Positions 479-15,435 of a stretch of DNA of 22,105 bases are shown piece after piece; positions within the stretch are counted from its first letter, which is position 1; each line of letters starts with the position of its first letter. The DNA comes from a virus: the IMG/VR virus record IMGVR_UViG_3300002460_000183, positions 1 to 22,105 of that record. The stretch is one strand, 5' to 3'. Below the pieces are notes generated by a model. That model saw only the letters and a list, made by a program, of their open reading frames with translations, did no database searches and was not told the DNA's origin. Position numbers and translations under genes: made by a program.

Positions 479-1261
479 ATGGACTTTTCAAGAACTTGGC
501 TCGACGCCCTCAATGACATCCTGACCAATGGTGACCCAGTGGCGCCACGCGGCAAGATGACTCGTGAGATTCCCCAACGTACCATGGTAGTCGACATGCG
601 CCGCCCGGTGCTTCGTGTACCTGACCGCAGCCTGAGCTACAAGTTCATGGCCGCCGAGGCATACTGGATCCTGTCTGGTGATGACCGCGTGGAGACCATT
701 GCTCCATACAACAGCCGCATCAAGGACTTCAGCGACGATGGTGAACGCTTCTTTGGCGCCTACGGCCCCAAGATCAAAGCTCAGTTGCCCTACATCATCG
801 ACAAGCTGTTGGCCGACGAGGACAGCCGTCAAGCTGGCCTGACCATCTGGCGTGAGTGCCCACCAAACACCAAGGACGTGCCTTGCACCGTGGCGATCTT
901 CTTCAGCATCCGCAGCGGCAAGGTGAACGCCCACGTGTTCATGCGATCAAGCGACGTCTGGCTTGGTGTGCCGTATGACGTCTTCAACTTCAGCATGCTG
1001 GCTCATCTGGTCTGCGGCTTGTTGAATGAACACCGTCCGACTGCCGACGCAGTGAAACCTGGTCGCCTCTTTTTGACGGCAGCCTCAAGCCACCTGTACG
1101 AGACCAACTGGGCAGATGCTAAGTTGTGCCTGGCCAGCGAGGTCCTTGAGCAACCTGAGACAGACATCCTGCTTTGGAACGACGCGGCACACTTGATGAA
1201 GGTCTTGGCCGCCTTGCGCGAGACCAAGGCTGGTGACGACCTTCGCTGGTGGGAGAACTAA
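479..1261 (+). CDS. Thymidylate synthase-family enzyme, possible dCMP (hydroxy)methylase
   Basis: A 260-residue pyrimidine C5-methyltransferase-family protein. Visible landmarks are E60 (E. coli TS Glu58), DEDSRQ (113-118, phosphate-binding Arg region, second Arg replaced by Gln), the nucleophile C136 in VPCT, MRSSDVWLG (155-163) and SHLY (204-207). The residue matching E. coli Asn177, which reads the uracil ring, is D167 in VPYDVFNF. In this family Asp at that place is the mark of dCMP-specific enzymes: T4 dCMP hydroxymethylase has it, and TS Asn-to-Asp mutants act on dCMP. The protein is about the usual length, but the end is divergent and lacks the TS C-terminal PVAI-type tail. AAGGA precedes the ATG. 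It is followed directly by a dCMP deaminase. The family is certain. Substrate (dCMP against dUMP) and product (methyl or hydroxymethyl) are inferred. Confidence 0.85.
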   Translation: MDFSRTWLDALNDILTNGDPVAPRGKMTREIPQRTMVVDMRRPVLRVPDRSLSYKFMAAEAYWILSGDDRVETIAPYNSRIKDFSDDGERFFGAYGPKIKAQLPYIIDKLLADEDSRQAGLTIWRECPPNTKDVPCTVAIFFSIRSGKVNAHVFMRSSDVWLGVPYDVFNFSMLAHLVCGLLNEHRPTADAVKPGRLFLTAASSHLYETNWADAKLCLASEVLEQPETDILLWNDAAHLMKVLAALRETKAGDDLRWWEN

Positions 1262-1262
1262 G

Positions 1263-1757
1263 ATGAGACTCAGCCGCGACGAATGGGCCCTCAAGCTGGC
1301 CTTGCTGACCGCTCAGAGAACAACTTGCTGCCGCCGCGCCGTGGGTTGTGTCTTGCTGAATGCCCGTGGCCATGTACTCTCAACCGGGTACAACGGCGTC
1401 GCGGCTGGGCTTCCTCACTGTAATCACATGGAGGTTGTCACTGATGACGATGGCCACAACACCTATGTGGTTGAGGTCTTTCCTCATGCTTGCTCAGGAG
1501 CCAAGGCGCCAAGCGGCACGAACCTTGATGGCTGTCAGGCGATCCACGCCGAGCAGAATGCCTTGCTCCAGTGCCGAGACATGTATGCAATCCACACAGC
1601 CTACGTGACGGCCAGCCCATGCATGACCTGCTGCAAGCTGTTGCTGAACACGAGTTGCCAGCGGATTGTCTACGTGGAGGAGTATCCTCATTCGGCAGCC
1701 AAAGACTTGTGGACTGGTGCCGGAAGGACCTGGGAGCAACTTCTTGTGGAACTTTGA
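1263..1757 (+). CDS. Deoxycytidylate (dCMP) deaminase
   Basis: A zinc-dependent cytidine/deoxycytidylate deaminase-fold protein of 164 residues that should convert dCMP to dUMP in the cytoplasm. The catalytic motif is complete: H95-A-E97 (zinc ligand and proton-shuttling Glu) and P119-C120-M-T-C123 (two Cys ligands). RRAVGCVLLNARGHVLSTGYNG (within 24-45) matches the family's substrate-loop strand, and C22/C23, C53 and H55 could form the extra structural zinc site known in T4-type enzymes. The ATG at 1263 is chosen over an in-frame start 30 bases upstream because GGGAG lies 7 bases before it and it sits one base after the upstream stop, implying coupled translation with the TS homologue. Together they form a pyrimidine cassette. 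Some dCMP deaminases also accept 5-substituted dCMP, which matters given the neighbour's Asp substitution. Confidence 0.93.
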   Translation: MRLSRDEWALKLALLTAQRTTCCRRAVGCVLLNARGHVLSTGYNGVAAGLPHCNHMEVVTDDDGHNTYVVEVFPHACSGAKAPSGTNLDGCQAIHAEQNALLQCRDMYAIHTAYVTASPCMTCCKLLLNTSCQRIVYVEEYPHSAAKDLWTGAGRTWEQLLVEL

Positions 1758-4636: not shown

Positions 4637-6535
4637 TTACTCGCCCAGGGCCTTGCGGACCTTAGCTCTTGTTTTCGCATCTTTGATGCCTTTAGTCATC
4701 AGACGGAAACTTGTCATGATGGGTGCAGGTACTCCTGCCGTGCCGCTGATAGCAATGTCCATCATGCCAGCTAAGACGCTGGCGGTGTTGCTTGTGTTGA
4801 CGCTACCAGGTGGTGCAACAAGCACATCCTTGGCCACATCATTGATAATACGAAGTTGCTCTGCGCCCTTCTTGCCAAACACAAAATCAAGTTTGCCAGA
4901 CTTGTCCAGCTGACTGACCACACGGTCAAGTTGGCCTGGCGACAAGATGGGGTTCCCAAGTTCGTCACGACCAACTCCTTTAGTGGCCTCATCACGCAAG
5001 AACTTAAGCGTGCCGCCTTGCAATTCCTTCCAGGCTTGTTGGCCATTAGGACCCTCAGTCTGAAGCAAACGACGAACTTGCCGAACGGTATCAAGAGAGG
5101 TAGATGGGTCAATGACTGAGCGGCGTAGAACATCTTCCATGGCGATGGCGCGATCATTTGAACCACGCTTCTGGCCAAGCAGGTTCTTTACCAAACCAAT
5201 GTTCTCGTAATCACTGCCAAACCGGGCTCGTGCTGCACGGGCTTGCTTGTACATGTTGCCACCAAGGCCGTCAGTTGAGGCATCAATGAGGCTGCGCATC
5301 TGCGAAGCTTGCATGATGTTGGTTGGCTCAGTGTTGGTAGCTCCACCAATAGACCGGCGGAATAACTCGGCCGTCTTGAGAGCCACAGGTTGGGCAACCA
5401 ATGTTCCATCAGGCGCTTCAGTGGCCACGCCGAGCTGTAGCGCTTTGGCACGAGTTGCCTTGAGCACGTTGGCCACCTCAGCCTCAGGTGCGTTGTCAAC
5501 CAAATGCTGAACCACGGTGTCGAGCTTGACAGGGGCTTCCATCTCGCCGGCCTTCTCGGCCTCCTTGTACAAGGTGCGGATGCGTGTCTTGTCACGAGCA
5601 GCCCGGTCACGAAGCGCCTTGTCTACGGTCAGGCCAATGGAACGCAAATCAGGTGCCTCAGCTCCAGTCATGTCGATGAAGGTCTCAAGGTTTTGTTGGA
5701 GCTGCTTGTTCTGAGTGGCGAAACGCTCACGAATGGGTGCACCTACTTCAGGCAACTTGGCTGTTTCGCGTTCAAAGCGTTGCTGCTCAAACTGGCGTGT
5801 CTTTTGACCTTCGGTCAACTTGATGGGCACTGGCAATTCTTCGGCTTTGGCTTGGCGCAGGGTGGCCAAATCAACACCAGCGGCCCCACCGGAACCAGGC
5901 GTGCCAGGAGTGGGCTTCTTAGAAGTTGCACCAGGCAGTATCTCAGTGATTGGCTCAGCAACTTTGGCTACAGCTTGACCAGCACGCTTTGTGGCAGCAA
6001 CGACGGGAGCCGCAACACGACCTGCAGTTGCTGCCACAGCTGGCATTGCGGCTTTTACACCTGAGGACACTGCACCAATAGGACCAACAACTGGGATGAC
6101 AGGAGGGACATTCTGAAGCACTTCACCGACGGCTTGTACCTGCTCCTGGCCTGACTGAGTGCGAGGCGCGTAGGTCAATGCCTGAGCTCCCTGCATGGCT
6201 GACTTCTGGACCAGGTCAGCCGCTTGCTGGCTACCAAACTGGCCAGACAGGATCTGCTCAGCCAGACCCTTCAGCGTGCCGCCAATAAGACCGGCTGCTC
6301 CTCCAATTGCACCAGTGCCAATGGTCAATGCTGCCTCGCCAGCCCCAACAATCTTCTCACCAACAGATGGTTCAACGTACTCCTGAGTTGTGCCAGGCAC
6401 AATCGTGTCTGGGATCTGGTTTGTGGTATCTTGGCGTGCCTTGACAAGCACGGCAGCCAAGCGCCGAGCGGCATCAAGGTCACCCGCCTTGTCGGCGTTG
6501 ACCAAGGCCAGCTCAAGTTCTTGGAGTGTTGCCAT
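4637..6535 (-). CDS. DNA ejection / internal virion protein (P22 gp16 position)
   Basis: 632 residues. The N-terminus (ALVNADKAGDLDAARRLA, about 10-27) is a helical motif often seen at the start of phage ejection proteins. A glycine/alanine-rich hydrophobic stretch (about 62-92, IGTGAIGGAAGLIGGTLKG) and an Ala/Val-rich one (about 150-190) could insert in membranes. The rest is long, charged and mainly helical. It is the third and largest of three consecutive ejection-type genes, just before the tailspike, the place of gp16 in P22. Such proteins leave the capsid and help DNA cross the envelope. No lytic transglycosylase or protease motif was recognised. Its ATG shares one base with the preceding stop (TAATG). 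Role by position and style; no strong sequence match claimed. Confidence 0.7.
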   Translation of the reverse strand: MATLQELELALVNADKAGDLDAARRLAAVLVKARQDTTNQIPDTIVPGTTQEYVEPSVGEKIVGAGEAALTIGTGAIGGAAGLIGGTLKGLAEQILSGQFGSQQAADLVQKSAMQGAQALTYAPRTQSGQEQVQAVGEVLQNVPPVIPVVGPIGAVSSGVKAAMPAVAATAGRVAAPVVAATKRAGQAVAKVAEPITEILPGATSKKPTPGTPGSGGAAGVDLATLRQAKAEELPVPIKLTEGQKTRQFEQQRFERETAKLPEVGAPIRERFATQNKQLQQNLETFIDMTGAEAPDLRSIGLTVDKALRDRAARDKTRIRTLYKEAEKAGEMEAPVKLDTVVQHLVDNAPEAEVANVLKATRAKALQLGVATEAPDGTLVAQPVALKTAELFRRSIGGATNTEPTNIMQASQMRSLIDASTDGLGGNMYKQARAARARFGSDYENIGLVKNLLGQKRGSNDRAIAMEDVLRRSVIDPSTSLDTVRQVRRLLQTEGPNGQQAWKELQGGTLKFLRDEATKGVGRDELGNPILSPGQLDRVVSQLDKSGKLDFVFGKKGAEQLRIINDVAKDVLVAPPGSVNTSNTASVLAGMMDIAISGTAGVPAPIMTSFRLMTKGIKDAKTRAKVRKALGE

Positions 6536-7830
6536 TAACGTGCTCCTTGGGTATACTTCTTCACAAGCGCATCGATGTCGCCACCAGACGTGCTCACGGC
6601 CGGTGTGTCAGGGATGGTCTCAGGCAGGCCTGCACGAGCAGTCATGTTCTTGCGAGCCTTCATGACCAAGCGCTGAGCTTCCTTGACGTTCTCGAGCAGA
6701 CGCTCAGGAGACTGCTTCAAACTGAAGTTCTGCAAAGCTGCTTGAAGCTTCTCGCCTTCGGCGTTGGACAATGCGCCCATGCCCTTGATGTTGGGGATCT
6801 GGGCCATGAATGACTGTGAACCAAGCGTCTCAACCAGAGCCTCGAAGTCGGCCGTGTCTTGGCTGAGAGTGGGCATGCGCGACGACACCGGACCGGCAGC
6901 TGAACCAATCACACCAATCGGCGTCTTCAGGATGCGATCAGCCGTGTTAAGCATATTGTCCATGTTGGTTCGAGCAGACTCAAGGTCTGCGGCCTTGGCG
7001 CGCACCGCATCATCACGTTTTTGCACCATATCCTGCAACTTAAGTTGGTTTTCTTCACGCTTGATCTGGTTACCCTCGCGAGCAATCTGAGCATTCATGG
7101 CTGCAATGCCAGCATTTTGCTTGGCAATCTTGATGTCCTCTTGGATCTTCGTGATGTCCCAACCTTTCTTCTGCAGGTCAAGCACCGCACCAGACTCAGC
7201 GAACTTGGCCTCAACAGCGGCTTTCTGGGCCTTGGCCTGAGACTCAGTCAGCTTCGATGGTTGAAGTTCTGCATCGCGCTGCTCGCCCTGAAGCTTTGTG
7301 AAGGTTTCAGTAAACTTGTCAGGCCCCATGGCCGACGCCAGAAAGAGGCCGGTGGAAGTCTTGGCCGTTTCAGGACTAGTCTTGATCAACACGCCCAGGT
7401 CTTCAAGTGTCTTGGCTTCGCGCTCTTGACCTGAGTTGCGGTAGGCGGTAGCCTGCTCAGTCAATAACTGTTGGGCAATCTCTGGATTGCCAGATTGAAG
7501 CGCAGCATAGACCTGCGTGGCTTGACCCAGGCGTGAGTCCTTCTGCTCAGTGCTGAGCACGTCGTAGGTCCGCTTGAAGTTCTCGCTCAGACTTGGATAC
7601 TTGACCATCATGCTGGCCAAAGCTGAGGGCGTCGGATTTTGAGATAGCGTACCAAGATCAGCTTCCATCTTTGCTTGGGTCTCACGCGCCTTTTGGAGGT
7701 CGAGAGCTTTTTGCTCGGCCAAGTTACGCTGGGACATCATGTTGGAGATGTTGAGTGCGTTTTGAACTCCACCCATGACCGACTGTGTCGGATCTGGGAC
7801 GTTGAGCATGTAGTTGAATGGTTGTGCCAT
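6535..7830 (-). CDS. DNA ejection protein (P22 gp20-like position)
   Basis: 431 residues, highly helical with few aromatic residues and long Gln/Ala/Lys/Glu coiled-coil-like regions (about 35-70 and 195-300). MAQPFNYMLNVPDPTQSVMGG at the start and the C-terminal segment TLGSQSFMAQIPNIKGMGALSNAEGEKL are of the kind found in phage internal DNA-transfer proteins. It lies between a gp7-like and a gp16-like gene, so it is most likely the middle member of the ejection set. The start follows the preceding stop by one base and the end overlaps the next start, indicating coupled, stoichiometric expression. No enzymatic motif is visible. Confidence 0.7.
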   Translation of the reverse strand: MAQPFNYMLNVPDPTQSVMGGVQNALNISNMMSQRNLAEQKALDLQKARETQAKMEADLGTLSQNPTPSALASMMVKYPSLSENFKRTYDVLSTEQKDSRLGQATQVYAALQSGNPEIAQQLLTEQATAYRNSGQEREAKTLEDLGVLIKTSPETAKTSTGLFLASAMGPDKFTETFTKLQGEQRDAELQPSKLTESQAKAQKAAVEAKFAESGAVLDLQKKGWDITKIQEDIKIAKQNAGIAAMNAQIAREGNQIKREENQLKLQDMVQKRDDAVRAKAADLESARTNMDNMLNTADRILKTPIGVIGSAAGPVSSRMPTLSQDTADFEALVETLGSQSFMAQIPNIKGMGALSNAEGEKLQAALQNFSLKQSPERLLENVKEAQRLVMKARKNMTARAGLPETIPDTPAVSTSGGDIDALVKKYTQGAR

Positions 7831-7831
7831 G

Positions 7832-8476
7832 TTAGAACACCTTTAGAGCTTTGAGCGTGGCAACATTGCCGATGGTCCCGCCGATGTTTCCCCACATCTG
7901 GGCTTGAGCCTGACCTTGAGCCAGAGCTGCACCGGCGGCCGCCTGTCCTTGTTGTGTCAATGCATTGCCAATGTTGGCGCCAGTTTGCTGGGCGGCAGCT
8001 GCCTGGCCTGCGGCCGATGCTTGGCCCAAGCCTGAGATGGTACCAAGCTTACTGAACTGCGACTCAATCAACTGGCTTAAAAGCTGTGGGCGAAACTGAG
8101 CAAGAGTAGCCTGCACGTTGCCGCCACGAAGTCCGCCAGTTGCTGACGCGTTTTGCAAGATGGCGTTCTCACCTTGCTGCATCATTGATTGAAACTGAGG
8201 CGATGATTCGATGCCGGCAATTGCTTGTTGCTGGGCTGCCGGTCCTGCAAGGCCAAGTAGACCTTGTTGGCCACCGATGGCCTGCTCACCAGCTCCTACG
8301 TAAGGAGCCAGCAACTTTTGAACGGCGTCGAACTGACGCCGCTGCTCCTCAATTGATGCTTGGCTTGCTGCAGTCTGGGCACCAGCAGCTGATTCTGCAG
8401 CACTAGACTGCGCGTTGCTGGACATCACGCCAGTGATGACTGATCCGGCCACGACAGCCGTTGCGATTCCGCTCAT
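7832..8476 (-). CDS. DNA transfer/ejection protein (P22 gp7-like position)
   Basis: 214 residues, strongly Ala/Gln/Gly-rich. It begins with a hydrophobic helix (VVAGSVITGVMSS, about 8-20), continues with EEQRRQFDAVQKLLAPYVGAG (about 43-63), and has a central GENAILQNASATGGLRGGN segment (about 101-119) that is characteristic of small phage DNA-transfer proteins, then ends in low-complexity QGQAAAGAALAQGQAQAQ. P22 gp7 is an ejection protein of similar size and composition. The ATG overlaps the stop of the cupin-SET gene (ATGA), with an AAGGAG ribosome site inside that gene. Confidence 0.75.
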   Translation of the reverse strand: MSGIATAVVAGSVITGVMSSNAQSSAAESAAGAQTAASQASIEEQRRQFDAVQKLLAPYVGAGEQAIGGQQGLLGLAGPAAQQQAIAGIESSPQFQSMMQQGENAILQNASATGGLRGGNVQATLAQFRPQLLSQLIESQFSKLGTISGLGQASAAGQAAAAQQTGANIGNALTQQGQAAAGAALAQGQAQAQMWGNIGGTIGNVATLKALKVF

Positions 8477-9339
8477 TGGGATTCTCCTTCAATTAGATTG
8501 ACGCCCGAGAGGGCGAGGGCTTGGCGGTAGTCAACTGTCACCTCCTCACCTTGATTGCCACCGGCGCATCCAGCAATGCGCTTCAAGGCTACAAGCCAGA
8601 TGTCACCACTTTCGTCCTTGACAAACTTAGCGTTGGGGTTCTTAGCGTGGTTGGTGTAGCGACCTGCTGGTGTGCGCATGCCATCGATGCGCGCTGGTGC
8701 GATGACCTCACCTTGCTCAACTGAAGAGCTGAGGAAAACACCTTTGCCCTCAATGGCCGAGTCACGCACGGTGAACTTAGGTGCAAAACCACTTGGCATC
8801 TTGATTTGGTCATGCGGATTCTCAGACTGAGCGCGGACTGCAGCAGGCGTGAAACCTGCAAGGCGCACAACAAGTTCAAAGTCTTCACGGTCTTCACGGC
8901 GGTGATAGGTCTCAAGTTGCTTAGCAACCTCAGCGTGCGCTTGCCACGTGGCGCTCTTGTCGAGGAACATGGCCTCAAGCTTATCGATGTCGCGCTCGTC
9001 AGTGGAGTAGACATTCTGCCAGATGCAGGTCTCAAGCACGTAGCCAAGTTTGCGGCCAGGCTTGCCAACAAAGATCATGGGTGCTCGCAGCACTTTGGTC
9101 TGACCATCGTCACCTACCATGGCAACTGCACCAGTCAACATGATGTTGAGGTGCTCAAACCGCTGGGCGTGGCCGATGGCGAGAGTGCCAGCCGGCAGAG
9201 TGACTTCGCGGATGTAGATACCCGGGCCGAAGTGGTGGACAACTGGGCACTCGACTTGAGGCAGGTCCAAAAGGTGTGATTCAACCTGCTCGATTTTAGC
9301 AGGGTCCACAATACTGTGGGATTTGGCTTCAGCCAGCAT
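8473..9339 (-). CDS. Cupin-SET domain fusion protein
   Basis: 288 residues in two recognisable domains. Residues about 32-120 form a cupin: IREVTLPAGT, GHAQRFEHLNIMLTG (H57 and H63 as possible metal ligands), then VGKPGRKLGY and a WQNVY strand. A helical linker (about 120-175) leads to a SET lysine-methyltransferase-like domain (about 188-272): EGKGVF (197-202, the GxG motif), GRYTNHAKNPNAKF (226-239, matching the RxxNHxxxPN motif that binds S-adenosylmethionine), and GEEVTVDY (264-271, the GEELxxDY motif with the catalytic Tyr). All three SET signatures are intact. The zinc-binding pre/post-SET cysteines are absent, as in many short SET proteins. It sits between a small structural protein and the ejection genes, so a virion or assembly protein is a plausible substrate. 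A good AAGGAGA site precedes the ATG. Confidence 0.8.
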   Translation of the reverse strand: MLAEAKSHSIVDPAKIEQVESHLLDLPQVECPVVHHFGPGIYIREVTLPAGTLAIGHAQRFEHLNIMLTGAVAMVGDDGQTKVLRAPMIFVGKPGRKLGYVLETCIWQNVYSTDERDIDKLEAMFLDKSATWQAHAEVAKQLETYHRREDREDFELVVRLAGFTPAAVRAQSENPHDQIKMPSGFAPKFTVRDSAIEGKGVFLSSSVEQGEVIAPARIDGMRTPAGRYTNHAKNPNAKFVKDESGDIWLVALKRIAGCAGGNQGEEVTVDYRQALALSGVNLIEGESQ

Positions 9340-14903: not shown

Positions 14904-15233
14904 TTACTCCTTGGCGAGTGCGGCGGTGATCGCGTCGCTGAGTTCAGCGTCGGTCGTCTTTTTGTCGAACTTGATACCCAGTTCTTTGGCCTTGGTCTCG
15001 AGCTCCTTGCGGGTCGGAGGATCATTGTCCTCAGACTTCACGACAGGTTTGTCGTGGGCGTCAATGGCTTCAGGCAGCGTGGTAAACCAACCATCAGCCA
15101 GTTTGGTATCGAACTCCTCCTTGTCATTGGCGGCCGCGTAGTCGTAGGTGCCACCAGCACGGGAGTGAGGGCCATGACCTTTGTAGACGAGCGTAGGGAA
15201 CTGGTCGTCGGCAGTTTGAACTTGTTCAGTCAT
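14904..15233 (-). CDS. Small head/connector-region protein with C-terminal HeH/SAP-like motif
   Basis: 109 residues. The N-terminal half contains [21 protein letters not shown] (about 13-33) and [13 protein letters not shown] (about 47-59), a pattern met in small phage head-gene proteins of unknown role. The C-terminal ~35 residues ([19 protein letters not shown], then [15 protein letters not shown]) read as helix-extended loop-helix, as in HeH/LEM or Rho-N-like nucleic-acid-binding modules. Start overlaps the upstream stop by four bases (ATGA). It may bind DNA or the connector; no firm function. Confidence 0.65.
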
Positions 15234-15382
15234 TTCTTGTTACCTTTCTTGGTTGCGGCTTTGGCTTTCTTTGCCACGCTCAGAGCAATTGCAACTGCTT
15301 GCTTCTGAGGTTTGCCGGATTTCATTTCGCGGCGGATGTTCTCCGACACGGACTTTTTGCTGTAACCTTGTTTGAGTGGCAT
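15230..15382 (-). CDS. Small basic conserved phage protein
   Basis: 50 residues from [20 protein letters not shown], followed by [20 protein letters not shown] and a Lys-rich tail. The [22 protein letters not shown] pattern is common in very small phage proteins that lie beside head genes; their role is not established. The high Lys content suggests nucleic-acid contact. AGGAG precedes the ATG. It begins just after the terminator that follows the coat gene, so it is expressed from read-through or from a promoter not recognised. Confidence 0.75.
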
Positions 15383-15401
15383 GTCAGTCTCCTGGAGGTT
15401 G

Positions 15402-15423
15402 AAGAAAGGGGCCGAAGCCCCTT
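15402..15423 (-). terminator. Terminator after the coat protein gene (UUCG tetraloop)
   Basis: On the minus strand AAGGGGC-TTCG-GCCCCTT forms a seven-base stem with a stable UUCG loop, followed by TCTTC. It lies 13 bases past the coat stop codon. The short, interrupted U-run suggests partial termination, which would raise coat transcripts over the connector and tail genes downstream. Confidence 0.8.
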
Positions 15424-15435
15424 CCCTCAATCAGC

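Follow-up and report, generated by a model that had tools for sequence, protein, structure and literature searches.

What does a protein that reads as a cupin fused to a SET methyltransferase domain do among the assembly genes of a phage? The question is raised by an ORF on the minus strand of a 22,105-nucleotide stretch of viral DNA (IMG/VR record IMGVR_UViG_3300002460_000183), the whole of which is referred to here as the window. A sequence-only reading of this DNA had proposed that the ORF joins a cupin to an intact SET domain within the virion operon, and that it methylates lysines of other proteins.

The ORF at 8473-9339 joins a cupin to a SET domain

The ORF matches the full-length profile of PHROG 34170 (E 6e-91, residues 14-281). 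It thus belongs to an already catalogued phage family, whose function is unknown and which has no domain annotation. An AlphaFold2 model built from 27 sequences (pLDDT 87, pTM 0.81) runs from a beta-barrel (residues 33-112) through linker helices (118-172) to a SET domain (189-277). Fold searches of this model with Foldseek and VIA-align related the N half to cupins and the C half to SET enzymes, including the viral enzyme vSET. Together with the Pfam match described below, these folds confirm a cupin and a SET domain with a helical linker between them, as follows.

8473..9339, minus strand: cupin-SET fusion gene, 288 aa, ATG start, stop included
8959..9258, minus strand: cupin barrel, residues about 28-127; cupin fold matches at Z 9-10, PHROG 12032 and 24280, dN/dS 0.024
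8785..8958, minus strand: helical linker, residues about 128-185, from the secondary structure of the model
8509..8784, minus strand: SET domain, residues about 186-277; Pfam SET, vSET fold match, dN/dS 0.087
8734..8748, minus strand: GxG motif GKGVF, residues 198-202; G198 and G200 invariant in 27 members
8632..8652, minus strand: NHxxxPN motif, residues 230-236; N230, H231, P235 and N236 invariant in 27 members
8527..8550, minus strand: GEEVTVDY motif with the catalytic-type Y271, residues 264-271; G264, E266, T268 and Y271 invariant in 27 members

The window protein scored 23.5 bits for Pfam SET (PF00856; E 7.9e-5), above the gathering cut-off of 22.4, and all 27 aligned family members matched this family at E ≤ 0.1. 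The NCBIfam scan of the protein returned no match. Searching the PDB with the single sequence gave no match either, so SET structures were reached only with the family profile, which found the MLL/KMT2 SET structures (human MLL, 2e-8) and vSET (6e-4). The MLL alignments span the GxG segment and the segment from NHxxxPN to GEExTxDY. When the SET part of the model was compared with known structures, it matched MLL1 at Z 10.9 and vSET at Z 9.9 (rmsd 1.9 over 80 residues, 32% identity); the SET fold expected from the letters alone was therefore obtained.

All three motifs named in the sequence-only reading are present, the second as part of a longer stretch, RYTNHAKNPN (residues 227-236). Their invariance was determined in an alignment of 27 members reaching down to 42% identity. 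Across 58 SET-bearing relatives, GxG and NHxxxP(N/S) occur in every protein and the tyrosine motif ExTxxY in 57, the sole exception (L020) being a protein cut off by the contig end. In Rhodoferax phage P26218, serine replaces the last asparagine of NHxxxPN. The description of the domain as intact thus holds for the conserved motifs but less well for the variable SET-I region, which makes up one flank of the substrate channel and looks shortened: the aligned span is 86 residues compared to 103 in vSET, about 17 shorter, which makes substrate binding uncertain.

In most members, Phe or Met occupies residue 239, three past the asparagine of PN. The degree of methylation is governed in DIM-5 and SET7/9 by a Phe/Tyr switch, and by analogy Phe or Met at this position would favour di- or trimethylation. 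A G-C-x-G-G insert just ahead of GEEVTVDY (residues 257-263, window 8551-8571) is conserved in the main clade and missing in distant relatives such as L335, L337 and PH1.

A close known parallel for the fold and the GxG, NHxxxPN and ExTxxY motifs is vSET of PBCV-1 (A612L, a histone H3K27 methyltransferase). Unlike the fusion, it is a stand-alone enzyme of a eukaryotic virus that acts on a host histone and has no cupin. One database record, that of Podoviridae sp. ct1fd225 (MW202744), labels its homologue 'pbcV-1 histone H3-lys 27 methyltransferase structure'.

For the N half, no cupin family was matched in the Pfam scan of the window protein. The cupin assignment rests on weak Cupin_2 matches in six of the 27 family members (best E 0.001) and on the fold of the model, in which a double-stranded beta-helix was found. 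At the metal positions, H57 is invariant, residue 59 is Q or H, and residue 63, the Glu position, is H. The histidine of motif 2 is missing in the 27-member alignment, so the classical metal site of three His and one Glu is incomplete. Judged from the model, membership of the cupin fold stands despite this, as many cupins have no metal.

Spread of the family and selection

The same fusion, which the sequence-only reading had proposed to look for in other phages, is present in many freshwater short-tailed phages and in dozens of environmental phage contigs. Our IMG/VR scan found 61 loci with relatives. Cultured relatives are Rhodoferax phage P26218 (54%), which carries the fusion, and the distant Pseudoalteromonas phage PH1 (32%). 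Bacterial assemblies also carry it; one case is a 369-kb contig from a Paraburkholderia MAG. In Paraburkholderia ferrariae, the cupin and the SET domain are encoded by two adjacent, overlapping genes, which fits interacting partners, while L338 and L339 have a SET domain without a cupin.

The fused proteins cluster in a tree of the cupins, with at least three label changes. L055, a cupin without SET, is nested within the fused group, which makes SET dispensable there, and PH1 groups with the cupin-only proteins. The tree points to at least one loss of SET and perhaps to a second fusion event. For 16 close relatives, the overall dN/dS is 0.063, with 0.024 for the cupin and 0.087 for SET; by this sequence measure, the SET part is under purifying selection.

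Three other loci are worth recording. In L059 (247-1158), the cupin-SET is broken over overlapping frames, with the cupin in two frames and SET in a third ORF, which may reflect a frameshift or an assembly error. In L338 (6010-9717), the cupin-less SET gene is close to an ORF resembling the bacterial sigma-70 gene rpoD, perhaps in a prophage or remnant. A 34-kb contig in a Lentisphaera MAG (L327, DYMC01000001.1) has an 82% identical cupin-SET and a gp7-like gene and is likely a mis-binned phage contig.

A fixed position before the first ejection gene

The location in a virion operon, also proposed from the letters, was borne out. The genes follow the order of P22: portal, scaffold, coat, gp4-like, gp10-like, tail fibre, a 117-aa protein, the cupin-SET, and then a gp7-like protein, a PHROG 2534 ejection protein and a 632-aa protein. 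The features downstream of the fusion are the following.

8473..8476, minus strand: ATGA overlap of the fusion stop and the gp7-like start, read from the sequence
7832..8476, minus strand: P22 gp7-like DNA ejection protein, 214 aa; Pfam P22_gp7 E 1.8e-12, PHROG 598 E 3e-39; candidate substrate or client
6535..7830, minus strand: second ejection protein, in the position of P22 gp20, 431 aa; PHROG 2534 'released from the phage upon host infection', E 2.7e-31
4637..6535, minus strand: 632-aa protein in the position of P22 gp16, third ejection protein by gene order only; no match in Pfam or PHROG

The ribosome site of the gp7-like gene, AAGGAG at about 8484-8489, falls within the final codons of the fusion. 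In most relatives, the next gene, which usually begins MSG, starts four bases before the fusion stop, and in nearly all others it starts within a few tens of bases. The fusion therefore overlaps or abuts a gp7-like gene in nearly every relative, including those in bacterial assemblies. Past the end of the virion operon, on the opposite strand (window 479-1757, plus), are thymidylate synthase-like and dCMP deaminase-like genes, possibly for nucleotide supply or base modification.

The place occupied by the fusion, which we call the slot, alternates between a cupin, a cupin-SET, a cupin plus a GNAT protein, and a GNAT-fold protein; this is a positional pattern and not homology. The cupin-only phages (of Vibrio, Shewanella, Dickeya and Sphaerotilus, and the Zobellviridae) have a cupin here. 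Podophage cupins (PHROG 12032/24280; BPP-1 bbp23, VvAW1 gp4) are homologous to the N half of the fusion and precede the first ejection protein in the same way, but they have no SET domain. In BPP-1, the GNAT acetyltransferase bbp24 is followed by the cupin bbp23 and then by bbp22.

A cupin-less GNAT gene is found in Limnohabitans phage DC33, ctEw122 and IMG/VR loci, where it precedes a small protein ending GTMLTGPQGVD..LGKNTLLGG. The C-terminus of BPP-1 bbp22 has this same ending. The family of this small protein, PHROG 16847, is encoded downstream of the cupin-SET in L048 and downstream of the GNAT in DC33. The slot GNATs, such as bbp24 and that of DC33, are small group-transfer enzymes whose genes come right before that of a cupin or a PHROG 16847 protein. 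They differ from SET in having an unrelated fold and in using acetyl-CoA rather than AdoMet as cofactor. The canonical acetyl-CoA loop R-x-x-G-x-G is kept in bbp24 (HRPGGAG) and ctQRb9 (HRKSGIG). DC33 itself (L160, PQ492659.1) is filed under Inoviridae, which is probably a taxonomy error, as its 39-kb genome looks podophage-like.

P22 and T7 have proteins without cupin or SET homology in the slot. That of P22, immediately before gp7, is gp14 (L078:8911-9366), annotated only as head morphogenesis / DUF2824. Its model (24 sequences, pLDDT 85) shows the GNAT fold clearly (Z 16.3, rmsd 1.9 over 137 residues, TM 0.76-0.80), with an acetyl-CoA loop that looks degenerate (RGFSKE). T7 gp13 (L077:808-1224) lies immediately before T7 gp14, and its sequence looks faintly GNAT-like by eye. 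Profile-profile comparison of P22 gp14 or T7 gp13 with the slot GNATs gave no signal with the shallow profiles at hand, and the window protein matched neither DUF2824 nor Phage_T7_Gp13 in the Pfam and PHROG scans.

Possible roles in virion assembly

Our tentative preference is that the fusion is a protein-modifying enzyme acting at the time of assembly. The C-terminal SET domain would bind AdoMet and most likely methylate a lysine on a phage protein. Our best guess for the substrate is one of the ejection proteins encoded next door, a positional suggestion taken from gene order. The cupin, the conserved part of the gene slot, would probably dock the enzyme onto the freshly synthesised ejection protein, and methylation might then stabilise or pack the ejection proteins or prepare them for ejection. 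The cupin-SET may accordingly methylate a virion protein during assembly, both activity and target being putative.

Several results point this way. SET was recognised by Pfam, by the PDB profile search and by fold; its motif residues are invariant in the 27-member alignment and present in 57-58 of 58 proteins, with a dN/dS consistent with constraint; the gene is tied to the gp7-like gene by the ATGA overlap or by abutment; P. ferrariae encodes the two halves as overlapping genes; and the GNATs that BPP-1 and ctQRb9 have in the same slot keep a canonical acetyl-CoA loop. Arguing against it are the short SET-I region, the loss of SET in L055 and the gp7-like proteins of SET-bearing phages, which have no conserved lysine (best columns 12/25). 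Two other targets suggested by the sequence-only reading fared poorly. The Lys-rich small protein (15230-15430) belongs to a separate phage family, PHROG 2423, and showed no link to the SET gene; no such link was found for the scaffold tail either.

More doubtful is a wider idea, in which the slot would be an exchangeable station for group-transfer enzymes (SET or GNAT, with the cupin docking) that modify ejection proteins for packing or for threading out, and P22 gp14 would fall into the same functional class. This would bear on the question of how ejection proteins are packed and later expelled: if methyl or acetyl transfer does prepare them, phage assembly would include an extra maturation step. 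P22 lends itself to a test of the idea, its slot gene 14, a GNAT fold by model, being amenable to genetics.

A literature search that took in few subscription journals gave nothing relevant on cupin-SET proteins of phages or on lysine methylation in phages, and no SET enzyme was reported there from the virion operon of a phage. The P26218 genome paper mentions neither SET nor the P26218 homologue gene, and we found no statement about the slot gene in work on the ejection proteins of P22 and T7. SET domains have a precedent in phages, in cyanophage P-SSM7. What is new is that SET is fused to a cupin in the ejection-gene slot, and that there is exchange with GNAT proteins.

The negative lysine test leaves a non-catalytic role as a serious rival, though we consider it rather unlikely. 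The fusion would then be an assembly factor or chaperone for the gp7-like protein, its SET fold binding a partner or ligand and being kept as a scaffold. This rival gains weight from the degenerate loop in P22 gp14, which may act likewise from the same slot, and it agrees with the cupin-only versions that work in the slot of other phages and with the stronger constraint on the cupin than on SET. A pure scaffold, however, would not need the catalytic-type SET residues, all of which are invariant over deep divergence.

We give still less weight to a host protein as the target of methylation, whether late in infection or after injection alongside the ejection proteins, to the benefit of the phage. 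vSET of PBCV-1, one of the fold matches, does act on host histone H3, and the stand-alone SET protein of P-SSM7 sits among metabolic and not virion genes. In contrast, the fusion is coupled in a fixed way to the first ejection gene in phages that differ widely, which suggests a role in the virion.

Finally, a tail fibre or adhesin component is very improbable: the PHROG labels of the N half (12032, 'short tail fiber protein'; 24280, 'tail fiber adhesin') and a Shewanella phage X14 record naming the cupin-only homologue a structural gene speak for it, but the single cupin barrel has no fibre repeats, its dN/dS is only 0.024 and the SET motifs are retained. We judged the 'short tail fiber' label to be an annotation carry-over.
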